Shown here: positions 16,063-19,272 of the stretch, piece after piece | How positions within the stretch are numbered: position 1 is the stretch's first letter | How the letters are laid out: the number at the start of each line of letters is the position of its first letter | Assembly: GCF_900176465.1 (NCBI RefSeq) | Contig: NZ_FWXR01000007.1 | Coordinates: 1 to 64,000 of the forward strand | Direction: 5' to 3' | DNA: 64,000 bases | Source of the DNA: Fulvimarina manganoxydans | GTDB taxonomy: Bacteria; Pseudomonadota; Alphaproteobacteria; Rhizobiales; Rhizobiaceae | Program-made: the position numbers and the translations under genes | Notes under the pieces: model-generated | Database searches by the model: none | Told to the model about the DNA's origin: nothing | The model's input: the letters and a program-made list of their open reading frames with translations, nothing else

Positions 16063-17467
16063 TCGTCTCGTGCTGCGCAAGCCATACACGAAAATCACTG
16101 AGAGCTCTGGCAGACAAGGCCTTCTTCTTAGCGATCGCCTTTTCCTTGCCTCGGAATCGCTTCTGACCTTCGGGTTTCTGGATCGCGCCCGGCTCCAGCG
16201 GCGCGAAGAGGCCGAAATTGACGTTCATCGGCTGGAAGGAGCGCTTGCCGCCGTCTTCCTCGTGGCTGAGATGCCCGCCGGTGATATGGCCGAGAAGGGC
16301 GCCCATCGCGGTCGTCACCGGTGGCGGGGCGATCTCTAGACCGAGGGCCTCCGATGCGGCGAAGCGACCGGCCATCAGGCCGACGGCCGCCGATTCTACA
16401 TAGCCTTCGCAGCCGGTGATCTGCCCGGCAAAGCGCAGGCGTGGCAGCGCTTTCAGCCGAAGCCGGTCGTCCAGAAGGCGGGGCGAATCGAGATAGGTGT
16501 TTCGATGTAGCCCGCCGAGTCGCGCAAATTCCGCGTTTTCGAGGCCCGGAATCATACGGAAGATTTCGGCCTGGGCCCCGTATCTCAGCTTCGTTTGAAA
16601 GCCGACCATGTTGTAGAGCGTGCCGAGTGCATTGTCCTGGCGCAGCTGGACGACGGCATAAGGCTTGATGTCGGGCTGATGGGCATTGGTCAGACCCATC
16701 GGTTTCATGGGTCCGTGGCGTAAGGTTTCCGGGCCGCGCTCCGCCATGACCTCGATCGGCAGACAGCCGTCGAAATAGGGCGTGCCTTCCCATTCGCGGA
16801 ATTCGGTCCGGTCGCCCTCGACGAGCGCCGCGACGAAACGCTCATAGGTGTCCTTGTCGAGCGGGCAATTGATGTAGTCCTTGCCCGTGCCACCGGGGCC
16901 GACCTTGTCATAGCGCGATTGGAACCAGGCCTTGTCCATGTCGATCGTGTCGAAATGGACGATCGGGGCTATGGCATCGAAGAAGGCGAGGGCATCGCGG
17001 CCCGTCGCCTCGGCGATGCCCGCCGCGAGGCCTGGTGCCGTCAGCGGACCGGTCGCGACGATCGTCGGTCCCCACTCTTCGGGTGGCAGCCCCTCGACCT
17101 CGCCGCGCTCGATCGTGATCAGCGGATGGTCTTCCAGCGCCTTGGTGACAGCCGCGGAAAAGCCATCGCGATCGACCGCGAGCGCGCCGCCCGCAGGCAC
17201 CTGATGGCGATCCGCGCAGGACATGATCAGCGATCCGGCTAGCCGCATCTCGGCATGGATCACACCGACCGCGTTGCTCTCGGCATCGTCCGAGCGGAAG
17301 GAATTGGAGCAGACGAGCTCTGCAAGGTTCTCGGTCTTGTGGGCGTCCGTGCCGCGTACAGGGCGCATCTCGTGCAGCACCACGGGCACGCCGCGCGATG
17401 CGACCTGCCATGCAGCTTCCGAACCGGCGAGGCCACCGCCGACGATATGAATAGGATGATCGGTCAT
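16037..17467 (-). CDS. trmFO: tRNA (uracil-54-C5)-methyltransferase, folate/FAD-dependent
   Basis: TrmFO makes ribothymidine at position 54 of tRNA using methylenetetrahydrofolate and FADH2. The 476-residue protein starts with the FAD-binding [16 protein letters not shown] and continues with [25 protein letters not shown] (the Cys-containing family signature) and [11 protein letters not shown]. Later blocks are [41 protein letters not shown] and [16 protein letters not shown], all family landmarks. It lies downstream of, and in the same direction as, the DUF1127/hairpin locus, with about 240 bp between them. Confidence 0.95.
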
Positions 17468-17710
17468 GCGAAGGATTTAACAATCCGCAGGTCTCTGCGG
17501 AAGGGCATCGCTGACAGGGCGTCCAGGAATGAGCATCAAAATTCGCGGATCGGCCTTGAAGACCGCAAGGCCTTGGCTCGTCGCTGGGGAGAAATCAGAC
17601 CAATCCATTCAAGCGAGCGGGTTTCAGATCGCTCAGCTGGTGCGCTCGATGGGCACTCTGCACTGTAGAATTGATTTTTTAGAAGTGAGCGCCACAAGGC
17701 AGCGGTGCCC

Positions 17711-17829
17711 CAAACGACAACACCCGCCGGTGGGAGGAACCGGCGGGTGTCGTTTGAGTGAAGCCTGCATTTGGGAGGAGGAGTTGCAGGCTCCTATTCG
17801 CCGAGGATTGGGAGGAGGAGGTCCTCGGC
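17711..17829 (-). ncRNA. Cuckoo triplet 5 (distal): hairpins 17800-17829, 17762-17792, 17711-17756
   Basis: The first hairpin has stem GCCGAGGA/TCCTCGGC. The second has AGCCTGCA/TGCAGGCT with a 15-nt loop. The last is the strongest of the array, an 11-bp CACCCGCCGGT/ACCGGCGGGTG stem around a 7-nt loop, extended by AAACGA/TCGTTT, and may act as the 3' end of the transcript although no U-run follows. Confidence 0.75.
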
Positions 17830-17846
17830 AAAACTTAAAATTTCGT

Positions 17847-17958
17847 GGGCGCTCACCGGCGGGAGGAGGTGCCAGCGAGCGCCCGAAGATCGAAGCCTGC
17901 GATTTGGGAGGAGGTGCAGGCCTCTCTTCACCGGGGATTGGGAGGAGGAGGTCCCCGG
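17847..17958 (-). ncRNA. Cuckoo triplet 4: hairpins 17931-17958, 17895-17921, 17847-17884
   Basis: Stems are CCGGGGA/TCCCCGG, GCCTGC/GCAGGC and GGGCGCTC/GAGCGCCC with an inner GGC/GCC. The outer pair of the last stem is G-C here and C-G in triplets 2 and 3, a compensatory change. Confidence 0.75.
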
Positions 17959-17975
17959 CAAACCGTCAATTCTGT

Positions 17976-18087
17976 CGGCGCTCATCGGCGGGAGGAGGTG
18001 CCGACGAGCGCCGTAAGTTCGAAGCCTGCGATTTGGGAGGAGGTGCAGGCCTCTTTTCACCGGGGATTGGGAGGAGGAGGTCCCCGG
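17976..18087 (-). ncRNA. Cuckoo triplet 3: hairpins 18060-18087, 18024-18050, 17976-18013
   Basis: Near-identical to triplet 4 at an offset of 129 bp, including the spacer AAACCGTCAATTCTGTCGG beside the first hairpin, shared with triplet 4. Stems are CCGGGGA/TCCCCGG, GCCTGC/GCAGGC and CGGCGCTC/GAGCGCCG. Confidence 0.75.
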
Positions 18088-18104
18088 CAAACCGTCAATT
18101 CTGT

Positions 18105-18217
18105 CGGCGCTCATCGGCGGGAGGAGGTGCCGACGAGCGCCGTGAGTTCGAAGCCTGCTATTTGGGAGGAGGTGCAGGCCTCTTTTCGCCGAGGATTGGG
18201 AGGAGGAGGTCCTCGGC
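18105..18217 (-). ncRNA. Cuckoo triplet 2: hairpins 18188-18217, 18153-18179, 18105-18142
   Basis: Stems are GCCGAGGA/TCCTCGGC, GCCTGC/GCAGGC and CGGCGCTC/GAGCGCCG. The first stem has A-T where triplets 3 and 4 have G-C, so the pair is kept by a double change. Confidence 0.75.
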
Positions 18218-18247
18218 AAACCGTATATCTTTCTAGACCCCTTGAGT

Positions 18248-18358
18248 GCCCGCCGGTGGGAGGAACCGGCGGGCCTCATAGGAACGGACCACCTTTGGGA
18301 GGAGGAGTGGCGGTCCTTGTCATCGCGGCAACCATTGGGAGGAGGAGAGGTTGCCGCG
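18248..18358 (-). ncRNA. Cuckoo triplet 1 (promoter-proximal): hairpins 18324-18358, 18286-18316, 18248-18274
   Basis: This triplet follows the DUF1127 stop codon by 20 bp. Stems are CGCGGCAACC/GGTTGCCGCG, GGACC/GGTCC with an internal bulge, and a perfect 10-bp GCCCGCCGGT/ACCGGCGGGC around GGGAGGA (plus strand). Its stem sequences differ from triplets 2-5 except that the last resembles the terminal hairpin at 17711. Confidence 0.75.
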
Positions 18359-18378
18359 AATTCGAATTTTATGTTTGG

Positions 18379-18522
18379 TCAGCCGACGGTGCGACGTGCG
18401 ATCGTCGGAATGTCGTATCGCGAGATGCCGAGATCGGCGAGTTCGCGCTGCGAAAGACGATTCAACTCGTTGACGGTCTCGCGATAACGCCGCCAGTTGT
18501 TGTATGAGCGAACGATATCCAT
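18379..18522 (-). CDS. DUF1127 small protein (CcaF1-like), host gene of the cuckoo RNA array
   Basis: The 47-residue product (MDIVRSYNNWRRYRETVNEL at its N-terminus) has the DUF1127 core LSQRELADLGISRYDI, then PTIARRTVG. Short arginine-rich DUF1127 proteins occur in many alphaproteobacteria. CcaF1 of Rhodobacter is described as an RNA-binding factor that affects processing of the small RNAs encoded downstream in the same transcript. The same arrangement is seen here, with the first hairpin 20 bp beyond the stop codon. The ATG has AAGGA close upstream. The gene is below 150 bp and easily missed. Confidence 0.88.
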   Translation of the reverse strand: MDIVRSYNNWRRYRETVNELNRLSQRELADLGISRYDIPTIARRTVG

Positions 18523-18541
18523 AGTTCCTTGCCTTTTCCTG

Positions 18542-18569
18542 ACCAGTTGACTGGTTTCAATCGATTGAA
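18542..18569 (-). promoter_or_regulatory. Two adjacent palindromes just upstream of the DUF1127 gene
   Basis: TTCAATCGATTGAA (18556-18569) is a perfect 14-bp palindrome, and ACCAGTTGACTGGT (18542-18555) directly abuts it as a 6-bp dyad around TG. They lie 20-47 bp before the DUF1127 start codon. They could be an operator, or two small hairpins in the leader that affect translation of the gene. Nothing in the sequence decides between these. Confidence 0.45.
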
Positions 18570-18661
18570 GCGGCAGTTTCGTCTGTGTCGCTTCGTTGAC
18601 CAGAAGCTAGTCTCGGCTGATCGATTCCGGTAGGCGTTGGGCTGCATAGGAGCCATGCATT

Positions 18662-18676
18662 TTGTGCGATGCACAA
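18662..18676. promoter_or_regulatory. Perfect dyad TTGTGC-GAT-GCACAA upstream of DUF1127
   Basis: This 15-bp dyad lies 140 bp upstream of the DUF1127 start. Its half-site TTGTGC recurs upstream of other small genes in the window (124, 42827, 42873), suggesting a common regulator. The regulator is not identified. Confidence 0.4.
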
Positions 18677-19187
18677 TGACGCTCCAGTCAGTCTTGCTTC
18701 AGATATCTGCGATAAGCTCCGCCAACCCGGTGCCGCAGGCTGCAGGAGTGGCGCTGCGCGGGCGGCATTCCTCCTATTTCGGCATTCGGCGAAGCGCCTT
18801 GAGAGTGTTTTGCCTGGTCTCCTGCTCGCCGGAAAACGGTCCGTTCATCCTCGCAAAGCCAATCCGACGACCGATTGGTATTCGGGGCAAGCCATTTTAA
18901 GTCAGCTGCGAAGCGTGGTCGGCCGATCCCGGGTATCACGCGACTGACCCTCACGAATTTTGAGATACTGAAGGGAATCGAGTCTTTGACCGGTTGCGCG
19001 GCGCGCTTGTCCATATAAGAAGAGTGCGACGCGCGTGCCCTTCGGCCGAATTTCGCTCCGCCTTCGTGAAAAAGGCGCGCGAAAGGGGTGAGAGTCGGCA
19101 CAAATTGACCGTTTCCGACTCTTTCGTGACATGGGAGCCGGTGATATAGAGGCGCGCGCCTCATGCCGGTTTGCGCCGGCGTGCCAT

Positions 19188-19272
19188 GCGGGTGTGGCGG
19201 AATTGGCAGACGCACTTGGTTTAGGTCCAAGCGCCGAGAGGCATGGGGGTTCAAGTCCCTCCACCCGCACCA
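19188..19272 (+). tRNA. tRNA-Leu (anticodon UAG)
   Basis: The acceptor stem GCGGGTG pairs with CACCCGC and is followed by A and an encoded CCA. The anticodon stem CTTGG/CCAAG encloses TTTAGGT, giving anticodon UAG, which reads CUN leucine codons. The long variable arm (CGCCGAGAGGCAT) is the class-II form expected for leucine. The T arm GGGGGTTCAAGTCCCTCC is intact. It lies 74 bp before tig. Confidence 0.96.

Follow-up and report, generated by a model that had tools for sequence, protein, structure and literature searches.

Hairpin RNAs with anti-Shine-Dalgarno (aSD) loops have been described as a family of modules of 2, 3 or 4 hairpins (PMC3927594). In Rhodobacter sphaeroides, four CcsR RNAs are carried on one transcript (PMC10253847): CcsR1-4 are co-transcribed with ccaF1 from an RpoHI/RpoHII promoter (PMC10253847) and released by cleavage from the 3' UTR of ccaF1, a step in which RNase E, the processing enzyme, and CcaF1 both have roles (PMC8625941, PMC10253847). 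The CIN1 link of DUF1127 with CcsR-like RNAs is already in print (PMC10253847). NfeR1, of the ar14 family (RF02344; Smr14C2 in S. meliloti), has its own promoter (PMC7143759), and its redundant aSD loops silence ntrB and two ABC transporter mRNAs (PMC10746234). AbcR1 and AbcR2 (ar15) also carry aSD motifs, with AbcR1 under the control of LsrB, but they bind Hfq (PMC8844928) and form an Rfam family separate from ar14.

The locus analysed here lies on the minus strand of the first 64,000 nt of a Fulvimarina manganoxydans contig (NZ_FWXR01000007.1; “the window” below is this whole stretch) and is of this known kind, a DUF1127 gene with cuckoo RNAs (CIN1), here with five predicted RNAs of three hairpins each. 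The gene encodes a DUF1127 small protein of 47 codons (18379-18522, minus strand; PF06568 match of 59.3 bits, Pfam cut-off 23.3), has a CcaF1-like position and is found at the equivalent site in relatives. Fifteen stem-loops followed 3' of it on the same strand, from 18359 to 17717, the first stem beginning 19 nt after the stop. The fifteen CCTCCC motifs (18342 to 17737, minus strand) all lay in loops, on stems of 8-15 pairs with scores of 21-39 in our scripts; CCTCCTCC was found in 13 of the loops and TCCTCCC in the third and fifteenth. Elsewhere in the window, both strands included, there were 111 CCTCC groups, of which 29 reached the loose stem threshold (a score of 14) and 15 a score of 18, vs. 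15/15 in the array. The initial annotation had described a DUF1127 gene followed by fifteen CCTCCC-loop hairpins of anti-Shine-Dalgarno type, and both the description and its coordinates agreed with the sequence and the scripts. Four DUF1127 genes were present in the genome, and the hairpin counter found runs of at least two CCTCC hairpins only at the one preceding the array. The layout, in which a DUF1127 gene is followed on its own strand by RNAs with aSD hairpins, is that of a cuckoo RNA/CIN1 locus.

The array was built from triplets. The Rfam ar14 model (RF02344) gave five tandem matches (60.5-84.4 bits, all above the gathering score of 58.8), each covering three hairpins on the minus strand: unit 1 (18241-18364, 72.4 bits; hairpins 18359-18323, 18316-18286 and 18274-18248), unit 2 (18102-18224, 65.7 bits; 18220-18185, 18182-18150 and 18142-18105), unit 3 (17973-18095, 63.7 bits; 18091-18056, 18053-18021 and 18013-17976), unit 4 (17844-17966, 60.5 bits; 17962-17927, 17924-17892 and 17884-17847) and unit 5 (17715-17836, 84.4 bits; 17832-17797, 17794-17760 and 17753-17717). 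This covariance-model result confirmed the proposed cuckoo-RNA identity; the fifteen successive hairpins that had been reported were all present, but they were not independent elements, the repeated unit being the triplet (5 x 3). Units 2-4 were 88.6-95.9% identical among themselves (unit 3 vs. unit 2, 95.9%; unit 4 vs. unit 3, 92.7%), unit 5 shared 73-77% identity with these three, and unit 1 shared 60-67% with every other unit; TRF reported a tandem unit of 129 bp (17760-18224, 91% matches). In the 4.8-Mb genome, ar14 was matched five times at E <= 0.001, always in the array and nowhere outside it, and a triple-CCTCCC pattern 13 times, 13/13 in the array (reversed pattern, 0).

Three hairpins, CCUCCUCCC anti-Shine-Dalgarno loops (two of the fifteen had TCCTCCC only), variable stems, a length of about 123 nt and a candidate LsrB-type box upstream were shared with ar14/NfeR1. 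A DUF1127 gene, several aSD-loop RNAs, one transcript and a terminator at its end would be shared with R. sphaeroides ccaF1-CcsR1-4. The array differed from NfeR1, with its own promoter, in having five tandem units after one DUF1127 gene, and from the R. sphaeroides operon in having a candidate LsrB-type box in place of an RpoHI/RpoHII promoter. We take R. sphaeroides RS0680a to be one of the CcsR RNAs. RS0680a has two stem-loops (PMC3927594), vs. three per RNA and five RNAs predicted for the array. A search for ar15 was silent in the Fulvimarina genome and in the control genomes as well, so that absence of the AbcR family is not claimed. The array is arranged like ccaF1-CcsR and, by analogy, should work like NfeR1.

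A conserved LysR-type (LsrB/VtlR-like) promoter box of 36 nt, with consensus CTTGTTGCGTTGCACAAAACGCATGGCTGCCATGCA, was located at 18643-18678 (minus strand), 156-121 nt before the DUF1127 ATG. Its position weight matrix (PWM), built from 13 seeds each scored with itself left out, gave 42.1 in the window, where the best of 1640 mononucleotide shuffles reached 12.8. Of the 82 upstream regions, 54 exceeded the 99% control level; when up to 3 mismatches were allowed, a 30-nt pattern cut from the box matched the genome only once, at the array's own box. Its core, GCATGGCTCCTAT, differed at a single position from the published consensus of LsrB, GCAT-N3-TG-N3-T (PMC8844928), in the window and in both sister species. 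Among the 82 upstream regions this consensus was matched exactly in 30, mostly in the more distant loci, and with up to one mismatch in 68 (shuffles, 0.6% and 17.7%). VtlR, the Brucella LysR regulator of three DUF1127 genes and AbcR2, has a reported motif, CAATGCAGCCATGCA (PMC12595884), which was matched at 14 of 15 positions in Jiella pacifica and Jiella LLJ827. A perfect inverted repeat, TTGTGC-ATC-GCACAA (18662-18676, minus strand; TTGTGC-AGT-GCACAA in F. endophytica), was observed inside the box and may be a second LysR half-site pair.

Conserved TA--TT alignment columns marked a putative -10 element, TAGCTT (18604-18609, minus strand), which would place the transcript start near 18597 and the box core at about -61 to -49, the same position as that reported for AbcR1 (PMC8844928). 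These similarities suggest that LsrB may control the array transcript. A sigma70 scan showed no promoter-like site within 17300-18900. An own promoter for each RNA, a trait of NfeR1 that is not part of the Rfam model, was not seen; there was a single box, 5' of DUF1127.

At the other end, the last hairpin, with the T-rich end TGTTGTCGTTT (17704-17753, minus strand), is the probable terminator of the whole array, which would thus end at the fifteenth hairpin. At unit 5, 6 of the 12 nt spanning the stem end were T, compared with 1-2 at the internal units of the window, and in 7 of 8 arrays it was the last unit that had most T at this junction of the third hairpin (a tie in G022). When only the 12 nt after the stem were counted, the last unit was richest in 6 of 8 arrays, the exceptions being G022 and the window itself (3 at unit 5, 4 at unit 4). 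A strict terminator scan found no terminator at the array. Because the generic promoter and terminator scans were empty, we infer both the start and the end of the transcript.

Between these ends, a pattern search for RNWUU, which we take to be the RNase E consensus, detected sites at the unit borders (18101, 17972 and 17843-17835, within 17831-18101, minus strand). Of the 12 such sites in the array, 2 preceded unit 1 in the spacer after the gene, 6 fell between units, and the remaining 4 lay at the feet of the hairpins that open units 2-5 (hairpins 4, 7, 10 and 13); at the border of units 1 and 2, the sole site was that at the foot of hairpin 4. None of the 12 lay between hairpins within a unit. 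This placement predicts about five RNAs of about 123 nt, and the locus probably gives one transcript that is cut into about five RNAs blocking Shine-Dalgarno sequences. The suggestion that the locus is a polycistronic source of several processed RNAs is thus consistent with sequence signs, namely the box, the T-rich end and the RNWUU sites.

Each RNA would have three hairpins if the array is processed and fifteen if it is not, and in the latter case one long uncut RNA could act as a multivalent decoy, its fifteen loops titrating either mRNAs that carry GGAGG or a protein that binds CCUCC. A T-rich end was absent from the internal units of most arrays, which makes one long precursor likely, and hairpins occupied 524 of the 643 nt of the array; both speak for a decoy. 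The RNWUU sites at the unit borders argue against it, as does the arrangement of the motif groups in threes in 8 of 12 arrays (the window, F. endophytica, the third Fulvimarina, Aurantimonas 22II, Jiella, Aurantimonas VKM, G022 and G367), where the three-hairpin unit seems to be kept; CcsR1-4 of R. sphaeroides, moreover, are processed (PMC8625941). We regard the decoy as unlikely, and the role of sponge or global regulator raised in the initial annotation was not supported by the analysis. An amplified CIN1-type locus giving five processed aSD RNAs is the explanation we favour, with good confidence.

The number of units varied among relatives. All three Fulvimarina genomes had both the DUF1127 gene and the hairpins, with 2, 4 and 5 units, so that no case of the gene without hairpins was found in the genus. 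F. endophytica had 4 units by motif count (12 groups), with 4 array matches at E <= 0.001, and arrays of Jiella and Aurantimonas had about 4-6 units by the same count: 18 motif groups in Aurantimonas sp. 22II-16-19i, 15 in Jiella pacifica, with an irregular first unit, and 12 each in Aurantimonas VKM B-3413, G022 and G367. Genome G177 had 21 hairpins plus 6 linker motifs, with 7 ar14 matches above cut-off, on a contig of 6.1 Mb, and G024 had 16 motifs, with an N, up to the contig end; the motif counts of G010 (7) and G103 (10) were not multiples of three. Copy number in related genomes therefore ranges from 2 to 7 units, and the initial view of fifteen hairpins as exceptional was overstated, as 15-21 CCTCC hairpins or motif groups also occur in other genera. 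With four CcsR RNAs on one transcript in R. sphaeroides, the fair comparison is five RNAs vs. four. No report of arrays of at least 15 hairpins was found in the literature searched, a search that was incomplete, and absence from print is not claimed.

The array of G177 (locus L131, 2325-3338), the longest found, consisted of seven ar14 units, each some 150 bp long and six nearly identical to one another, and an extra CCTCCC-type motif was present in six linkers. In Jiella pacifica and Aurantimonas 22II, AGGAGG was found just 5' of the DUF1127 ATG and could pair with the loops of their own arrays, as in self-repression; the gene in the window had only AAGGAA 5' of its ATG.

The Rfam cut-off was passed by only some units in the relatives: 2 in F. 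endophytica, 1 in Jiella and 0 in both Aurantimonas 22II and G024. Of 297 genomes of the family, 291 had an ar14 match at E <= 0.001 and 277 had one above cut-off, and the triple-CCTCCC pattern was present in 365 of the 394 genomes of the family sample. At least 13 triple matches on one strand were found in only 3 of these 394 (15 in G177, 13 in F. manganoxydans and 13 in G024, with one match outside the array in both G177 and G024), which places fifteen hairpins at the top end of the range without making them unique. Class-wide, the triple pattern was present in 80 of 385 genomes, mostly as one or a few matches, several genomes having equal counts in the reversed control and the places being known for part of the matches. 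One genome of the class sample outside the family, G398, showed six matches on one strand (reversed control, 0).

Of 10 fetched loci, 9 had a DUF1127 gene ahead of the array (tblastn); the exception, in G024, was cut by the contig end. Among the best 80 of 547 DUF1127 loci, 52 had at least three downstream CCTCC hairpins by automatic count; four hairpins were the commonest number (26/80), none were found in 18 and three in 12, and the triplet rule is not general across DUF1127 loci. A second counter found 21 of these best 80 to be cluster-free within 250 nt downstream, and 15 of the 21, including S. meliloti, had clusters of at least two CCTCC hairpins in the 700 nt upstream. In S. meliloti 4H41 (L102), two separate CCTCC hairpin clusters lay upstream and not downstream of DUF1127, and two upstream clusters were also seen at L083, L084, L088, L089, L095, L097, L099, L104, L115 and L124. 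Automatic counts are approximate: the hairpin counter undercounted (11 vs. 12 CCTCC groups in F. endophytica, 12 vs. 18 in Aurantimonas 22II), the motif counter erred in both directions (14 vs. 12 at L052, 17 vs. 18 at L055), and its value for Jiella pacifica was too low, the 110-nt gap rule meeting a 141-nt spacing in the first unit.

An assembly artefact, by which a shorter or longer array would have been given five units, is very unlikely. The near-identity of units 2-4 and an assembly in 54 contigs would make such an error conceivable, but the units differ from one another, and F. endophytica has 4 units and G177 has 7, the latter on its 6.1-Mb contig.

The array also had a fixed place. 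In 17 chosen loci the gene order was tig - array - trmFO, with trmFO in 17/17 and tig in 13/17; of the loci lacking tig, L132 stops at a contig end, L131 may end too early, and in L108 and L109 the 3 kb upstream gave no match to tig. In S. meliloti (L102) the site lies in this tig-trmFO interval too, which means that RNA and gene have switched order there. A tRNA gene (19188-19269, plus strand, opposite to the array) was found between the array promoter and the trigger factor gene, and the arrays of Jiella, Aurantimonas 22II and F. endophytica likewise have a tRNA nearby. A 40-unit tree (without the first Jiella unit, which was too long, and without the arrays of G010, G024 and G103) grouped the first units of the three Fulvimarina (support 95/99), and placed unit 5 of the window with unit 2 of the third Fulvimarina and units 2-4 of F. 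endophytica with moderate support (80/81). Window units 2-4 formed a clade of their own (100/100), as did the units of G177 (100/100); placement between genera was weak. We read this tree as pointing to a two-unit ancestor, with a first and a last unit, and to separate amplification of inner units in each lineage. In-place amplification of a DUF1127-cuckoo RNA locus is part of the explanation that we consider likely as a whole.

Selection acted on the structure of the hairpins. TCCTCCC was present in 33/33 loops of the three Fulvimarina arrays, and the stems were variable. When stem arms were swapped between homologous hairpins of these 33, mean scores for own vs. swapped arms were 24.9 vs. 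14.1, 22.5 vs. 14.7 and 34.5 vs. 23.8 in the three hairpin classes, and 0 of 2000 permutations reached the observed sum, a result that counts as support and not as a probability because related copies make the permutations lenient. Stems co-varied and loops did not, and the structure is under selection. Consensus folding of 11 MAFFT-aligned Fulvimarina units had given 15 pairs only, in hairpins 2 and 3, because MAFFT misaligned hairpin 1 (double-sided changes at 8 of the 15 pairs), and the arm-swap test was used instead.

Window stems contained 16 G-T pairs and no A-C pair, which fits an RNA made from the minus strand sequence; the G-T excess was clear in the window and weaker as a general signal in the other arrays (14 vs. 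10 in F. endophytica, 114 vs. 54 in twelve arrays together). This bears on the possibility that the plus strand encodes an RNA with GGGAGGAGG loops, a CsrA sponge like CsrB. CsrB and CsrC carry many like-looped hairpins in one RNA, and GGA loops in series, of which the complementary strand would have fifteen, are typical of CsrB. Their loops are GGA, whereas those of the array are CCUCC; the CsrA family (PF02599) had 0 matches in the genome (98.22% complete; control, 3/14), and the stem pairs, the promoter box and the gene all favour the minus strand, making a sponge of this type extremely unlikely. A repeat protein, which a unit of 129 bp (43 codons) could allow by keeping ORFs open (161 aa on the minus strand, 235 and 220 aa on the plus), has a negligible probability, as the 161-aa and 235-aa frames had no Pfam match, the changes preserve pairing, and unit lengths of 136 and 137 in relatives mean that the reading frames do not hold.

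The locus is thus genuine, mostly explained, and a strongly amplified example of a known locus type. In the mechanism we propose for it, transcription would start at the LsrB/VtlR-type promoter near 18597, proceed through the DUF1127 gene and the five ar14 RNAs, and end at the fifteenth hairpin. RNase E, helped by the DUF1127 protein, would probably cut at the AU-rich borders to release about five RNAs of some 123 nt, the three CCUCC-type loops of each pairing with the GGAGG Shine-Dalgarno sequence of target mRNAs and blocking translation as in NfeR1. Tandem copies would multiply a single kind of RNA, raising its dose, and would not yield fifteen different ones. As for targets, GGAGGAGG-N3-12-ATG occurred at 52 sites in the genome vs. 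9 for the reversed pattern; among 30 of the 52 loci that were read, only 2 were convincing gene starts, most ATGs lying within longer frames or opening short ones, and the filter was passed by four entries from three loci (L155, L158 and, twice, L167, low-complexity). With so few convincing gene starts, no target is claimed.

We put forward tentatively, and with some doubt, that evolution uses the DUF1127-cuckoo locus as a dosage dial for translation, in which inner units are amplified in place time and again within one LsrB-controlled transcript and the DUF1127 protein, made with them, sets the number of RNAs released. If so, species with 2 to 7 units would differ in how strongly a stress signal represses Shine-Dalgarno-rich mRNAs, and 15-21 aSD loops per transcript could lower Shine-Dalgarno-led translation generally and not that of selected mRNAs. 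With 2, 4 or 5 units among three species of Fulvimarina and as many as 7 in other genomes, a single site between tig and trmFO offers a natural dose series. Small RNAs with aSD loops are nearly universal in the family. An LsrB-type box ahead of the amplified array, like those reported for NfeR1 and AbcR1, would tie the copy number to one stress regulator.
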